From Lentisphaerota bacterium (GTDB taxonomy: Bacteria; Verrucomicrobiota; Kiritimatiellia; CAIQIC01; Lenti-01): a stretch of DNA of 64,000 nucleotides. Below the pieces are notes generated by a model. It was not told the DNA's origin and did no database searches. It was given only the letters and a program-made list of their open reading frames with translations. Positions 2,915 through 28,447 of this stretch are shown in pieces. Location: contig JAAZBB010000076.1 of assembly GCA_012514035.1 (NCBI GenBank), positions 1 through 64,000 of the forward strand, written 5' to 3'. Position numbers and translations under genes: made by a program. How positions within the stretch are numbered: position 1 is the first letter of the stretch; each line of letters opens with the position of its first letter.

Positions 2915-4705
2915 CTATGGGCTGACACCGGACTCAACCCCCCAGTATTTTTCCATGCCCCAGGAGAAATCGTGGCGCCGGTAGTTGCGCAAACGATCAT
3001 GATAGACCGCAAAAGCCATGGGATAGGCGGTGAAAATCCACGGGCAATCCTCCAGCATCACCGCCGCCGCGGTCCGGCACAGGGCTTCGCGTTCCGGCGA
3101 TTCGGGCATGCCGATGACTTCCCGGTAGAGCCGATCGAACTCCGGGTTGCAGTAGTTGGCGCGATTGGGTCCCGGAGAAATGTTCTCGCTGGCGAACAAT
3201 TGCAGAAAGTTCTGGGCATCCGGGTAGTCACCAATCCAGGACAGGCTGAACATCTGCGCCTGACGCCGTTCGATCTTCTGCAGGAACGCCGGCCAGTTGT
3301 TGTAGCTGGGCTCGAGAACCACGCCGATCCGGGCCATGAAACTGGCCATCAATTCGGCGGCTTGCCGGACCTCGGGATTGTCCGCCGTCCCCAGCTCGAG
3401 GGTCAGTTTGAGTCGCCGGCCGGTGGCGGGATCCCGGCCAGCGGGATACCCGGCCTCGGCCAGCAGGTTGACCGCCCGGTCGAGATCGAACGAATAGGGC
3501 AGCGGGTCCGGGGAATGTCCGGCAACTCCGGGCGGTACCGGGCCGGTGGGAATCATCATGCGCCCGTTGTGGAAGTCCAGCCAGGCCTGGACGTCAAAGG
3601 CGCACGCCAGCGCCTGCCGCAGTTTCTGGTTGGTGCCCACGACGGGATCATCCATGTTGAAGGCGGTGTAGTTCACGACGAGCTGCGGCGATTTGCTCAG
3701 CACGATGCCGGCCGCCGCCAGCTCGGGCCGCAGTTCCATCGCGGGCGTGATGAGGCTGTCCCATTGATCGCGGCTGACATCCGTCAGGTCCAGTTGTCCC
3801 GACAGGAACATCAGCCAGGCCGTGGAGGGATCGCCCACGACGGACTCCACGATGCGCGGGGTCAGGGGCAGGCGTTTGCCGGCATCGGGACCGGGCACGG
3901 ACACAGGCATGGTTTCCACGCGGCCGGTTTCGGCCCATTTGGGATTGGCCTGGAACTCGTAGCGGTAGTTCTGCCGCGCCGCGGCCAGCACATACGGGCC
4001 GGTGCCGACGGGATGCTGGGCAAAATCCGCGCCGTAGAATTCCACGGCTTCGCGCGGCACAACAAAGGCATATGGCATGGCCAGCACCCACAACAATTGC
4101 GGATAGGGCGCAACGAGGCGGATTTCCAGTTCATGCGGCCCCAGCGCTCGCAGCCCTTCGACGGCGGCATCGTAATCGGTCGGCGCGGGCCCCTGGCTGG
4201 CCTCGCGAAACCGGTCCAAACCCGCGATCCGGTTGCGATAGGCCCAGTATCCTCCGGAGGCATTTTTGGCATCCGCAATGCGCAAGATGGAGTAGATCAC
4301 ATCCCGGGCCACCACCTCGCGCCCTTTGCCGGCGGTCGCTACAAAGCAGGGATCATCCGCAAAATAAATGCCCGGGCGGAGAGCGAACCGCCACACCAGG
4401 CCGTCATCCGTAACCGTGGGCATGGTCCGGGCCAACAGGGGCTCCAAGTGGTAAGGACGGTCCCAATAGGCAAATTGCAGGAGTCCTTCGTAGATTTTGC
4501 CCGCGGCTCGGAGCGAAGCCATGTCGCCGGCATGCGCCGGGTCGAATCCGGGAATGCGCGCCGTCGTCATGCGCAAGGTCGGCACCTCCTCCGGCACCGG
4601 CACCGTTGGATTCCCGCACCCGGCGACTGCAAGGACACAAAGCATACCGGCGGAGATAGAAAGCAAAACCCTGCCCCGTCCGGTCGAATGTCTGAAAAGC
4701 CGCAT
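2915..4705 (-). CDS. Family 5 (OppA/DppA-type) solute-binding lipoprotein
   Basis: About 596 residues of an ABC peptide-binding protein (SBP_bac_5 family), which captures oligopeptides or similar solutes outside the inner membrane. An N-terminal hydrophobic segment ends in the lipobox LAVAGC, so it is probably a lipoprotein. Family-like stretches include PGFDPAHAGDMASLRAAG and the C-terminal NRANYCNPEFDRLY. The ATG at 4705 gives a normal-length signal peptide; a GTG at 4753 in the same frame would add 16 residues and stand 9 nt after the secG stop. A strong hairpin (4706-4728) lies between the two candidate starts. No permease genes are adjacent. Confidence 0.85.
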   Translation of the reverse strand: MRLFRHSTGRGRVLLSISAGMLCVLAVAGCGNPTVPVPEEVPTLRMTTARIPGFDPAHAGDMASLRAAGKIYEGLLQFAYWDRPYHLEPLLARTMPTVTDDGLVWRFALRPGIYFADDPCFVATAGKGREVVARDVIYSILRIADAKNASGGYWAYRNRIAGLDRFREASQGPAPTDYDAAVEGLRALGPHELEIRLVAPYPQLLWVLAMPYAFVVPREAVEFYGADFAQHPVGTGPYVLAAARQNYRYEFQANPKWAETGRVETMPVSVPGPDAGKRLPLTPRIVESVVGDPSTAWLMFLSGQLDLTDVSRDQWDSLITPAMELRPELAAAGIVLSKSPQLVVNYTAFNMDDPVVGTNQKLRQALACAFDVQAWLDFHNGRMMIPTGPVPPGVAGHSPDPLPYSFDLDRAVNLLAEAGYPAGRDPATGRRLKLTLELGTADNPEVRQAAELMASFMARIGVVLEPSYNNWPAFLQKIERRQAQMFSLSWIGDYPDAQNFLQLFASENISPGPNRANYCNPEFDRLYREVIGMPESPEREALCRTAAAVMLEDCPWIFTAYPMAFAVYHDRLRNYRRHDFSWGMEKYWGVESGVSP

Positions 4706-22926: not shown

Positions 22927-23142
22927 CTACTTCTTGGCGGCGGCTTTGCGGGCGTACCGCTTGTTGAAGCGGTCCACGCGGCCTTCGGTGTCGATGAATT
23001 TCGCCTGTCCGGTGAAATACGGATGACAGGCCGCGCAGGTGTTGATGTTCATGCTCTTGACCGTGGAACGGGTCTTGAGCACGTGGCCACAGGCGCAGGA
23101 GATGGTGGCGTCGTTGTACTTGGGATGGATTTCTTTTTTCAT
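22927..23142 (-). CDS. rpmE: 50S ribosomal protein L31, zinc-binding form
   Basis: A 71-residue L31 beginning MKKEIHPKYNDA. Four cysteines (ISCACG and NTCAACHPYF) mark the zinc-containing type. YFTGQAKFIDTEGRVDRFNKRY is conserved. It is the first gene of the rpmE-trmD run. Confidence 0.96.
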   Translation of the reverse strand: MKKEIHPKYNDATISCACGHVLKTRSTVKSMNINTCAACHPYFTGQAKFIDTEGRVDRFNKRYARKAAAKK

Positions 23143-23247
23143 GAATTCAGGGTTCCGGGTCCGCCACGGCCGGAGGCGGCCAAGGCGAAAAACGCGCGCA
23201 ACCTACCACCCGACCCCGCCCTTGGCAAGCGGCAATTCTGACTTTGT

Positions 23248-23405
23248 CGGCCTTCGGCGCGCATCTGCGATTCGGTGCCCCCCGCCACGATTCAGGGTGC
23301 CATGAACGGGCGCGTGCTAACGCGAGCCCCTCAGGCGACTTCGGTCCGTAGTCCAGCCGTCGGCTGAGTTCCGACACGCAATCGCAGGTGCGCGCCCGGC
23401 CTTCG
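23248..23405. mobile_element. MITE-like element with 17-bp terminal inverted repeats and 9-bp flanking direct repeat
   Basis: The ends GGCGCGCATCTGCGATT (23256-23272) and the reverse complement of 23380-23396 match at 16 of 17 positions. The 9-mer CGGCCTTCG occurs at both borders (23248-23256 and 23397-23405), as expected for a target-site duplication. The interior (about 110 bp) encodes nothing but contains smaller stems (for example CTCAGGCGAC with GTCGGCTGAG). It occupies the 325-bp gap between rpmE and the divergent subtilase gene. Only this copy is visible, so mobility is inferred. Confidence 0.5.
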
Positions 23406-23467
23406 CGTCATTCGCCTTCCTTATCATTGCTTTCCCAACCGGGTGTGCTAGCTTGTCGCAATACCTC

Positions 23468-26400
23468 ATGACACAGCGCGCCTTGATTCGCCTGGCTTGG
23501 ATTCCCGGGCTCCTCCTTCTCGGCCTCGCCCTTTGGCTTGGACGACGGGACGCCGGGCGGCCAGATCCGATCCCCTCCCCGACGCCGGAAGAAGCCAACC
23601 GCCGGGCCGCGCCCATTTTGCAGAAGATCCAACAGCAACTGACCGCCACTCCTGCCGCCCGCCTTCCCGATGGTCCGGCCATCCGCCTGCGATCGGCCAC
23701 CATTTTTCCGTCCGCCGCGCCGCTGAATACAAACCTCCTGGCACACGCTCGCCCCTCCGCGCGCGGATATCCCTGGATGGTTCTATTCGATGGCCCGGTC
23801 CAACCGGAATGGCAAAGCGCCCTCGAAGAGGCCGGGGCCGTCATCCGGTCGTATCTGCCTGACCACGCGCTGCTCATCGAAGCCCGGCTGGATGTATTGG
23901 GAGATCTCGGCCGCCGCGCCCCGCTGGCATGGGTTGGCGAATATCTGCCGCTGCACAAAATCCAGCCGCTGCTGGCCGCGCTGGCCCGTCAGGAACCGGA
24001 CCTGTCCGTGCCGGTCACACTCCAGACCTTTGCTCCGGAAGACGTCCATGACATCGCCCGGCAATTGCAGGCGGCTGGGGCCGCCCATATCCGGACCACG
24101 CCGGCAAAACGCTGGGGGCTGGTGCGGGCCATGCTGCCCGCGCGCGCGGTCATGGAGATGGCGCAACGGCCCGAAGTCCAATGGATCGAACACCGGGCAA
24201 CGCCCCGGCTCCTCAATGATCAGGCGCTCGCCAGCAACCGGCTCAACGTCGCCGCGGCCCGCGATCAATACGGACTGGACGGCTCCGGGCAGATCGTCGC
24301 CATCGCGGACACCGGGCTCGACACCGGCAAAACCAACACCTTGCATCCGGATTTCGAGGGCCGCCTCCTCCATGTCTTCGACATCGGCCGGCTGACGAAC
24401 TGGAGCGACACCTATTACCACGGCACCCACGTTGCAGCTTCATTCGTCGGAACCGGCGCCGCCTCGGGCGGGCAGTACCGCGGGGCCGCGCCCGCCGCGC
24501 AGCTGGTGTTCCAGTCGTTCCTCACGGCCAGCCTGACGCTGGCCGCGCCGGACGATCTCAACGAGCTCTACCTGCCGCCCTACGAGTTCGGGGCCCGCAT
24601 CCATTCCGACAGTTGGGGCAGCGCGGTGGACGGTGCCTATGACTCGGATGCCATGACCACCGACGAATTCATCTGGGACAACCCGGACATGCTGGTGACC
24701 TATGCCGCCGGGAACGCCGGCACCGATGCCGATCGCGACGGCGTGGTGGACACGCTCTCCCTCAATTCGCCCGGCTCGGCAAAAAACGTGCTGACGGTCG
24801 GCGCCTCCGAGAGCGGCCGGCCCCCGGGCAGCGGCGGCAGAACCGCGAGCCTTTACGGCAGCAGTTGGGCGGCGGATTTCCGGACACCGCCGATCTCCAC
24901 CGATCTGATCTCCTCCAGCCCGAATGGAAATCCCCAGGGTATCGTGGCTTTTTCCTCCCGGGGTCCCGCGGCCGACGGCCGGATCAAGCCTGACGTGGTG
25001 GCCCCTGGGTCCGACATCGTCTCGGCCCGATCCCGGGCCTCCAGTGATACCGGCTGGGGGGTACTGGCCGCCAACACCAACTACTGCTTCCTCGGCGGCA
25101 CCAGCATGGCGACGCCGCTGGTGGCGGGCGCGGCCACCCTCGTCCGCCAGTATTGCGCCGAGCGCCTCGGCCTGCCCAATCCTTCGGCCGCCTTGCTCAA
25201 GGCGGCCCTGGTCGGCGGCGCCCGCTCCCTCTCCCCCGGACAATACGGCACCAACGAGTTCCGGGAAATTCCCCCTACGCCGCGGCCGAACAACGTCGAA
25301 GGCTGGGGGCAGACGGACTTGACTGGCACGTTGTTCCCGCCGGCCGGCATGCAGGCCGTGTTGATGGAAGGTTCTGCGGCTCTGCCTGCGGGCAGCAGCC
25401 ATGCGTTCGACTTCTATGTGCATGACTCCGCGCCGTTGACGGTGGTCATGGCCTACAGCGACTATCCTTCCGCCTTGGCGGCGGCCGTCAACCTGGTCAA
25501 CGACCTCGATCTGTTATTGCTGGATCCCGCTGGCACCCCGTACCATCCCAACGGCCTCGACGGTCCCGACAGCCTCAACAATGTCGAAGGCATCGACGTG
25601 GCCGCCGCCGCCACCGGACGCTGGACGCTGGCAGTCTCCGCGCCCAACGTGCCGGAAGGCCCCCAACCCTATGGCCTGTATCTGCGCGGCGCCATTTGGA
25701 TGCCGATCCAGCTCGACCATGAGCCGCTGGCCAACACGTTCGACACCAGCGGCGACTACCTGATCACCGCCGAGGCTTCCTCGGTCGCCGGGGTTGATCC
25801 GGACACGATCCGGCTGCATTGGAACATCACGGGAAGCAGCAACGAATTCACCACCGTCACCATGTTGACCACCAACGGGAGGGTCTTCACGGCAGCCATT
25901 CCCGCCCAGCCGGTCCATACGCGCGTTTTCTATTATCTGTCCGCCGGACCGGCGGAATTCCCGGCGTTTCATCCGCCCGCTGCGCCGGCGGAGTACCATG
26001 CTTTCGATGTCACCATCCCCCTGTCCCTGACAATCGGCGGCTCACCATCAAACAGCTTCACCGCGCAGCCGGACTACGGCGAGCACATTCTGGCCTCCAA
26101 CACCGCCGTCAGCGCCAGCGCCAGTTATCCGCTCGCCGGCACAAACGGCTGGCGCACCGCCTGCATCGGCTGGCAGGGGACCGGTGCCGTGCCGCCGGCA
26201 GGCCCGCTGGATTTCGTGGATTTCAGGCTGACGGCTGATTCCACCCTGACCTGGCTGTGGCAAGACCAGGTCGCATTGATGCACACGTCCTCGCCCTATG
26301 GCGCCATTGGGGCCGTCACCTGGCATCCCGTCGGCGAGACGGCCTCCAGCCTGATCGCGCCGGAGAGTCACGTCTTCAACAACGTCCCGCTGACCTTCGC

Positions 26401-28447
26401 CGGGTGGACGGTTGACGGCAGCCGCTGGCCGGACCCGAACGCCCCCTCACCGCTCCAGATCCATGCCATCCCCATGCCGGTCCCGCGCCTGGCCACCGCG
26501 ACCTATGTGCCTACGGCCCAGGACAACGATGCCAACGGACTGCCCGACTGGTTCGAGCTGCGCCATTACGGCCAGCTCGGACAGAACCGCTATGGCGATC
26601 CCGACGATGACGGTTACGAAAACGAACTGGAGGCCGCCGACCACACCGATCCCTTCGACAACGCTTCCGTGCCTGCCCCGCCTGTCATCGGCCACGAACC
26701 TCTGCACTCGCCCGCTGCGGCCCCCGCTCCATGGCCCATTGCGGCAACCGTCACCGACAACTACCGCGTCGCCTCCGCCACCCTCCACTGGCAGCGCAAC
26801 GGGGGCCTCTGGCGCTCCAGCCCCATGTCCAATGCCGCCCCCGACCTCTTCACGGCCCATATCCCCTCGCCGGCACTTGATGGCGATCAAATCGCCTATT
26901 ATATCTCGGCCGCCGATGCCGCCGGATTCAACGCCCAGTCCGTGACGTGGACCGTGAATGTCACCTATGCCCGCATGGCGTTCTCCCCGCCTGCAGTCGC
27001 ACTTGCCGCGCCGGCGGGCACCGTTACCAATGCCACGCTGGTTTTTCAAAACACCGGCAGCCAGGCACTGGATCTTGTCCTGGAAATCACGCCCGTCGGA
27101 TTCTTTGATGATGTTGAATCCGGAACCAATGGTTGGACCCGGCCCGACGGCAAACCGGATTGGCATATCAGCACGCACGAGGCCCATTCCCCGGACCATG
27201 CCTGGTATTGCGGACAGGAACTGACCCGAACCTATCGCAATTCCACCCATGCCGCCCTCGTGTCACCGCCCATTCAACTGGCCGCCGGCGCTCCCCGCCT
27301 CGATTTCATGCACTGGGCCGGCTTCGAAATCGACCAGGATGAATGGAGCGATGGCATTCACTACTGGGATGCCGGCATCCTGGAAATCACCGACAATGAT
27401 GGCCTGACCTGGCAGTCGCTGGTTCCCGAAGGGGGCTATCCCGGACTCATCACGTCCAACAACGCCTCGCCGTTTGCTCCCGAGACGCCTTGCTTCGTGG
27501 ATACGGTGGGCTGGGAGCCGGTCGGGGCCGACCTGGCCGCCTATGCCGGGCGCCAAATCCGCCTGCGGTTCCGTTTCGGGGCCGATCTGTACACCATCGG
27601 CGAGGGCTGGCGCCTCGACGATATCGCGGTTTCCCCGCGTACGGAATTCGCGGAGGGCCTGGCCCTCGCCTGGACCAACACAAGCCTGGCCGCGGGCATG
27701 ACCAATGAGCTGACCCTGACGCTGGACACCGCCTTCCTGCCGCCGATGGCCTCCGGACATTGGGCCATCGCCATTCACCACAACGATCCCGAAAAAGCAT
27801 CGCCGATTGTCGTGCCTGTGGCGCTGCACAACACCACCCGGCGCGTCCGCGTCACCACCGATGGCCCCGGCGAAGCCGATCCCGCCGGCGAATCCCTTGT
27901 CCAGGAAGCCCAGCCCTTTGCCGTGGACTTCACAGCGGCTCCCTGTTCATTCATCGCCGACATTCGCACGAATTCCATGCCGACGCCCCTTCCAGAGGTA
28001 GTGGCCACGCAAAACTTCTCTTGGACTTCGCTGTCCACCAACCTGGATATCCATGCCGTTTTTGCGCCGATCCTCGAAGATGGCCTCGTCCCGCTCGACT
28101 GGCTCGCGCTATATGGCCTTACCAACCGCCATTGGATGGCCGAGGCCAGCCTGGACCAGGACGGCGACGGCCTGCTGACCTGGCAGGAATACCAGCTCGG
28201 CAGCGACCCGACCGATCCCGCCGATGCCCGGCTCGTGGTGAACTTCGTCCCCAATCCCCATGGCAGTAATGCCTGGCGCGTTACCTGGCATGCCTTCACC
28301 AACCGCGCCGCCATCTACGACGTTCTGGGCTCGACCAACATCGTTGAAGGCTTTGTGGCCTTCACCAACCTCCCCGCCGCCCCGCCCGTCATGACGTCCC
28401 CGCCCCTGCCCCCGAACTACCGCGTTTTCGGCTTGCGCCGCCACTGA
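23468..28447 (+). CDS. Large secreted subtilisin-family (S8) serine protease
   Basis: A 1659-residue extracellular protein. After an N-terminal hydrophobic signal segment (about residues 6-25) and a propeptide-like region, the S8 catalytic residues are D281 (AIADTGLD), H321 (HGTHVAAS), N416 (oxyanion, YAAGNAG) and S546 (GGTSMATPLVAGA). A beta-rich domain with YSDYPSALAAAVNLVNDLDL follows, then several Ig-like or adhesion modules, a jelly-roll-like segment near residues 1200-1400, and a DQDGDGLLTWQEYQLGSDP calcium-binding-like repeat near the end. No autotransporter or PEP-CTERM sorting end is evident. A TTG at 23453 is an alternative start. Probably degrades environmental protein. Confidence 0.9.
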   Translation: MTQRALIRLAWIPGLLLLGLALWLGRRDAGRPDPIPSPTPEEANRRAAPILQKIQQQLTATPAARLPDGPAIRLRSATIFPSAAPLNTNLLAHARPSARGYPWMVLFDGPVQPEWQSALEEAGAVIRSYLPDHALLIEARLDVLGDLGRRAPLAWVGEYLPLHKIQPLLAALARQEPDLSVPVTLQTFAPEDVHDIARQLQAAGAAHIRTTPAKRWGLVRAMLPARAVMEMAQRPEVQWIEHRATPRLLNDQALASNRLNVAAARDQYGLDGSGQIVAIADTGLDTGKTNTLHPDFEGRLLHVFDIGRLTNWSDTYYHGTHVAASFVGTGAASGGQYRGAAPAAQLVFQSFLTASLTLAAPDDLNELYLPPYEFGARIHSDSWGSAVDGAYDSDAMTTDEFIWDNPDMLVTYAAGNAGTDADRDGVVDTLSLNSPGSAKNVLTVGASESGRPPGSGGRTASLYGSSWAADFRTPPISTDLISSSPNGNPQGIVAFSSRGPAADGRIKPDVVAPGSDIVSARSRASSDTGWGVLAANTNYCFLGGTSMATPLVAGAATLVRQYCAERLGLPNPSAALLKAALVGGARSLSPGQYGTNEFREIPPTPRPNNVEGWGQTDLTGTLFPPAGMQAVLMEGSAALPAGSSHAFDFYVHDSAPLTVVMAYSDYPSALAAAVNLVNDLDLLLLDPAGTPYHPNGLDGPDSLNNVEGIDVAAAATGRWTLAVSAPNVPEGPQPYGLYLRGAIWMPIQLDHEPLANTFDTSGDYLITAEASSVAGVDPDTIRLHWNITGSSNEFTTVTMLTTNGRVFTAAIPAQPVHTRVFYYLSAGPAEFPAFHPPAAPAEYHAFDVTIPLSLTIGGSPSNSFTAQPDYGEHILASNTAVSASASYPLAGTNGWRTACIGWQGTGAVPPAGPLDFVDFRLTADSTLTWLWQDQVALMHTSSPYGAIGAVTWHPVGETASSLIAPESHVFNNVPLTFAGWTVDGSRWPDPNAPSPLQIHAIPMPVPRLATATYVPTAQDNDANGLPDWFELRHYGQLGQNRYGDPDDDGYENELEAADHTDPFDNASVPAPPVIGHEPLHSPAAAPAPWPIAATVTDNYRVASATLHWQRNGGLWRSSPMSNAAPDLFTAHIPSPALDGDQIAYYISAADAAGFNAQSVTWTVNVTYARMAFSPPAVALAAPAGTVTNATLVFQNTGSQALDLVLEITPVGFFDDVESGTNGWTRPDGKPDWHISTHEAHSPDHAWYCGQELTRTYRNSTHAALVSPPIQLAAGAPRLDFMHWAGFEIDQDEWSDGIHYWDAGILEITDNDGLTWQSLVPEGGYPGLITSNNASPFAPETPCFVDTVGWEPVGADLAAYAGRQIRLRFRFGADLYTIGEGWRLDDIAVSPRTEFAEGLALAWTNTSLAAGMTNELTLTLDTAFLPPMASGHWAIAIHHNDPEKASPIVVPVALHNTTRRVRVTTDGPGEADPAGESLVQEAQPFAVDFTAAPCSFIADIRTNSMPTPLPEVVATQNFSWTSLSTNLDIHAVFAPILEDGLVPLDWLALYGLTNRHWMAEASLDQDGDGLLTWQEYQLGSDPTDPADARLVVNFVPNPHGSNAWRVTWHAFTNRAAIYDVLGSTNIVEGFVAFTNLPAAPPVMTSPPLPPNYRVFGLRRH

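Follow-up and report, generated by a model that had tools for sequence, protein, structure and literature searches.

A decayed MITE between rpmE and a subtilase gene, from an unusual lineage of promoter-targeting transposons

The element and its insertion site

The window, i.e., the whole 64,000-nt stretch of DNA that was analysed, contains a short segment with no credible gene between rpmE and a subtilase gene. The features around it are as follows.

22927–23142, minus strand: rpmE (ribosomal protein L31), read from the probable target promoter; name from the earlier note, consistent with orthologues
23200–23228, minus strand: predicted rpmE promoter, TTGCCA (23228–23223), 17-nt spacer, TAGGTT (23205–23200); the best-scoring site on this flank
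23248–23256, no strand: left copy of the target duplication CGGCCTTCG, 9 bp, the duplication length of the family
23257–23396, no strand: body of the miniature inverted-repeat element (MITE), 140 bp
23257–23272, plus strand: left terminal inverted repeat GCGCGCATCTGCGATT; family consensus GGGCGCATCTGCGATTCGGTGCA
23304–23332, no strand: decayed GTAG-REP-like palindrome, consensus GAACAGCCGCACGCTGAAGCGTGGACTAC, placed by alignment; the unit also occurs outside the MITE
23348–23366, no strand: GTAGTCCAGCCGTCGGCTG, a further GTAG-REP-like palindrome in the opposite orientation to the first
23380–23396, minus strand: right terminal inverted repeat AATCGCAGGTGCGCGCC, one base more than the consensus
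23397–23405, no strand: right copy of the target duplication CGGCCTTCG, 9 bp
23468–28447, plus strand: subtilase gene, flanking the insertion opposite rpmE

The earlier note had described this segment as a MITE-like element with a 9-bp target duplication, and both the anatomy and the duplication were borne out: the repeats GGCGCGCATCTGCGATT (23256–23272) and AATCGCAGGTGCGCGCC were identical at 16 of 17 positions, CGGCCTTCG was present in exact form on both sides, the ends recur in other copies, and 9 bp is the rule across the family. In that description, base 23256 was common to the left repeat and the left duplication. Since the family has a 9-bp duplication on each side, we placed the element at 23257–23396; the repeats and the duplication stood, and the one-base overlap was corrected. 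The left end of the window copy carries a G-to-C change relative to the family. Hence, the segment is firmly identified as a MITE with a 9-bp target duplication, now decayed and otherwise an ordinary kind of object.

The insertion site was compared with those of relatives. The distance from the rpmE start to the subtilase start was 160–166 nt in the four same-genus genomes with that gene order, all of which lacked the insert at the orthologous place, so that the insert-free site sought by the earlier note was found. The spacing of 327 nt in the window falls to 178 nt when the insert and one duplication are left out. The flanks of the four relatives aligned around the gap, with a divergence that hides the single 9-mer itself. 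Orthologues of rpmE in 18 relatives were 65–96% identical, which is consistent with its naming, and alignment with relatives favoured the ATG at 23468 over the listed TTG at 23453 as the subtilase start.

If rpmE or the subtilase gene had a structured RNA or a regulatory leader, kept for its function at this locus, it might have a similar appearance, and a strong fold was indeed predicted for both strands of the element, the fold of the window strand being more stable than that of shuffled sequences (z of −3.5 and −3.8). Such a fold is, however, expected from long terminal inverted repeats. The insert was missing from the four same-genus genomes, an Rfam search of the window element matched no family, the covariation term of the aligned subfamily was unfavourable, and copies were present at unrelated sites with 9-bp duplications. 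A functional RNA is therefore a most improbable account of the segment.

A dispersed family and its partner insertion sequence

Within the window, the ends of the element did not recur elsewhere beyond chance. The search for other copies that the earlier note had called for succeeded at a wider scale: the 15-bp end, searched in the whole genome of the same organism with up to two mismatches, gave 50 matches against four for the reversed control, and the copies in this genome showed 69–72% identity to the window element over most of its length (approximately 70% between the window copy and its nearest relatives). Within the genus, three other genomes gave matches with E-values up to 0.01, as did three within the family, and two genomes, G006 and G016, contained dozens of ends apiece. 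An exact search for GGGCGCATCTGCGATTNGGTGCA in 84,980 species genomes yielded 87 contig stretches, nearly all from metagenome-assembled genomes (MAGs) labelled Kiritimatiellae, Lentisphaerae, Verrucomicrobia, or similar; from these labels, we infer that the MAGs all belong to Kiritimatiellota. One element with these ends was located in a MAG labelled Bacilli; a Kiritimatiellae MAG came from that sample series too, and the placement of the element is probably a binning error.

Target duplications were assessed in 69 distinct elements with both ends, using flanks paired at random as a control. Exact flanking 9-mers were present in 18 of the 69 elements, and 29 matched at eight or more of nine positions; in the shuffled control, the mean was 0.43 and the highest count 4. 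For every other length between 4 and 13 bp, no more than one element had an exact flanking repeat. Because of the excess over the shuffled pairs, the 9-bp duplication was regarded as the rule of this dispersed family. The interiors of the elements fell into several unrelated subfamilies in which only the ends were common, which is the pattern to be expected of MITEs mobilised in trans.

The core of the window element holds a pair of GTAG-REP-like palindromes. GTAG repeats have been reported in PVC bacteria (PMC3733652), and the likeness to these GTAG-tagged REPs/BIMEs lies in the palindromes beside a GTAG tetranucleotide and in their tail-to-tail pairing, although the stem-loops are decayed in the window copy. 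The same pairs, GAAGCGTGGACTAC / GTAGTCCAGCCTTC, were observed outside the MITE in G006 (contigs C203, C352, and C467) and G009 (contigs C4, C74, C98, and C112); we therefore take the window-type core to be a REP pair that was captured by, or nested in, the element. The own genome, 2.8 Mb in size, also contains 17 Y1_Tnp (RAYT-like) matches, many for its size. The pairs and these matches would agree with a RAYT (Y1 transposase) mobilising a REP or BIME element. However, the mobile unit is bounded by terminal repeats (GGGCGCATCTGCGATT ends) and 9-bp duplications rather than by palindromes, and the pair was not found in the copies checked from three further subfamilies that have these ends. Furthermore, the REP motif was absent from 20 Y1_Tnp loci examined, so that the RAYT association of known GTAG-REPs was not seen there, and the ends are carried by an ISKra4-like insertion sequence (IS), as described next. 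Mobilisation by a RAYT is thus very unlikely, and the palindromes appear here as passengers of one subfamily inside a DDE-type MITE.

An IS with the same ends and its relatives were identified at the following loci.

L194, 2680–4408: partner IS with both ends, approximately 1.73 kb, two genes; predicted mobiliser
L194, 4008–4349: DUF6788 gene, divergent from the ISKra4-like transposase gene
L299, 69–401: DUF6788 gene, divergent, confirmed with Pfam
L010, 1531–1869: DUF6788 gene, divergent
L295, 941–1273: similar small divergent ORF, by resemblance only

The transposase of L194 aligned with NF033572 (ISKra4) at an E-value of 4.7e-47 and 161 bits, the cut-off being 205 bits, and scored above the cut-off of Pfam UPF0236. 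NF033572 was the best-scoring family for these transposases, and the ISLre2 model scored lower. The ISKra4-like transposases reached 161, 160.4, and 169.4 bits, which is below the curated cut-off even with an intact frame; we accordingly use "ISKra4-like" and not strict ISKra4 membership. No mention of DUF6788 was found in the literature searched.

The N-terminus of the L194 transposase is out of frame, the frame being broken at a run of nine A (around 3811–3819). A −1 shift at this run would join the upstream frame; the run may be a sequencing indel or a site of programmed frameshifting like that reported in the ISMich2 group. In other families of the class, related ISs with the same two-gene plan had an unbroken frame (L299, and L295 by resemblance). 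The transposase on contig C42 of genome G175 likewise has an intact frame, with matching ends and a small divergent DUF6788-like protein. The IS copy at L194 had no matching target duplication; an exact 9-bp duplication, CCGCGTTTT, was present at L296. In the own genome, a truncated 901-bp relative of the IS with remnants of both genes was located on contig C19, and no intact partner transposase was found in the assembly.

The earlier note had suggested comparing the ends with those of resident transposases or RAYT proteins. Judged from its ends and gene content, the mobilising partner is predicted to be an ISKra4-like IS with a UPF0236-type DDE transposase; the RAYT part of that suggestion did not hold. 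Origin of the MITEs as deletion derivatives of the IS was considered and rejected, as their cores clustered apart from the IS and its remnant; only approximately 23 terminal bases are common to the MITEs and the IS. The window element is very probably a non-autonomous MITE of this ISKra4-like IS of the Mutator superfamily, mobilised in trans. Its terminal repeats match those of the IS that carries the transposase gene, and the copies produce 9-bp target duplications; the transposase would bind the near-identical ends and join them to a staggered target cut.

Insertion upstream of promoters

We then scored the flanks of the family for promoters, using 178 distinct flanks from which the window copy was left out. 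Outward-facing sigma-70-like promoters peaked with the start of the −35 box 26–28 nt from the element edge, and inward promoters showed no peak there. The trinucleotide TTG was present at offset 27 in 42 of the 178 flanks, whereas a typical offset had it in approximately three. T, A, and T were mildly enriched at offsets 50, 51, and 55, respectively, as expected for a −10 box. A promoter score above 5 at offsets 25–29 was obtained for 62 flanks (shuffled mean 9, maximum 16). Counted per element, a promoter at the offset accompanied 20 of 37 elements whose duplication was clear and 17 of 30 that lacked one. The flanks from the own genome taken alone gave weak support, with a promoter at the offset in three of 15.

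A different family, with the ends GGCGCATCTGCGTAATTCAC, was also analysed in the genome G175, where 11 of 29 flanks had TTG at offset 27 and no other offset had it in more than two. This sibling IS/MITE family comprises approximately 41 ends, many near contig ends, and its promoters at offset 27 come close to the consensus. The copies of a third sibling end family, GGCGCATCTCCGTTTCCGG, were too few for an offset count.

It might be argued that the MITE is real and its nearness to the rpmE promoter a matter of chance: MITEs survive in intergenic regions, divergent regions hold promoters, and selection against insertion into genes would generally enrich promoters near the copies. The enrichment was, however, confined to approximately 26–28 nt and to outward promoters, the neighbouring 5-nt bins (0 to 6 elements each) and inward promoters being near background, and the sibling family with other end sequences repeated the offset of 27. 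Coincidence is thus an unlikely, though not a negligible, explanation. The evidence is strong that the family targets promoters at a near-fixed distance rather than at random, and the window MITE belongs to this lineage.

The window copy conforms to this pattern, at a site that is empty in relatives. The −35 box of rpmE starts 28 nt from the element edge, in by far the best outward site on the rpmE side, and the promoter region is conserved in four relatives. Its −10 box, TAGGTT, is weak, and for this reason the promoter did not appear in a strict consensus scan. The rpmE promoter was likely the target of this insertion. The subtilase promoter was rejected as the target, since no good promoter was present at 25–29 nt on that side (best score 2.5). 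The insertion was probably close to neutral, as it left both flanking promoter regions whole. The reading of the segment as a MITE in the earlier note is supported, and promoter targeting had not been seen there; the border between the core translation operon and the secretome block, which it had pointed out, is incidental, the site being one that fits the distance to the rpmE promoter.

As for the mechanism, promoter DNA, or RNA polymerase bound to it, may guide the transposase, and the symmetric ends would permit insertion in either orientation.

Relation to known promoter-targeting elements

Insertion upstream of promoters at a fixed distance is rare among bacterial transposons. Some elements of the ISKra4 group (p-MULT 4), which are prokaryotic Mutator-like ISs, insert upstream of sigmaA promoters with 13–17 bp from the junction, and symmetric-ended elements of this group have promoters on either side (PMC3942029). 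The transposases described here are homologous to this group over nearly the whole NF033572 profile, and the elements resemble those of the group in their near-perfect inverted repeats, in lying upstream of sigmaA promoters on either side, and in occasional extra genes. They differ in transposase scores below the NF033572 cut-off, in the divergent DUF6788 gene (L194 and L299, and L295 by resemblance), and in being mostly short and non-coding. Promoter targeting as such is already known for ISKra4-group ISs, and it is the offset of approximately 27 nt that differs from the reported 13–17 bp.

The TnGBS / ISLre2 family (p-MULT 3) likewise inserts at a fixed distance, approximately 16 bp, upstream of sigmaA promoters, with the orientation set by unequal ends (PMC3942029). 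The family analysed here resembles it in its fixed distance from promoters; the distance and the oriented, unequal ends of TnGBS / ISLre2 are distinct, and the ISLre2 model scored below ISKra4 for the transposases.

We tentatively propose, as a plausible rather than a probable reading, that a DUF6788-bearing ISKra4-like lineage in Kiritimatiellota inserts itself and its MITEs so that a constant 27 nt separates them from the downstream −35 box, approximately one helical turn more than the 16 bp reported for TnGBS / ISLre2, perhaps because it docks on RNA polymerase bound at the promoter. If this is true, scattered MITEs would mark promoters in unculturable bacteria. This MITE family of an uncultured phylum offers a clean sequence rule and numerous natural insertions, a good many of which point at a promoter. 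The offset of 27 differs from the published values of 16 and 13–17 by about one helical turn, a gap that could in part be a counting convention, as the offset is 18 if the 9-bp duplication is excluded; the difference from 13–17 could reveal how the transposase gauges its distance from a promoter.
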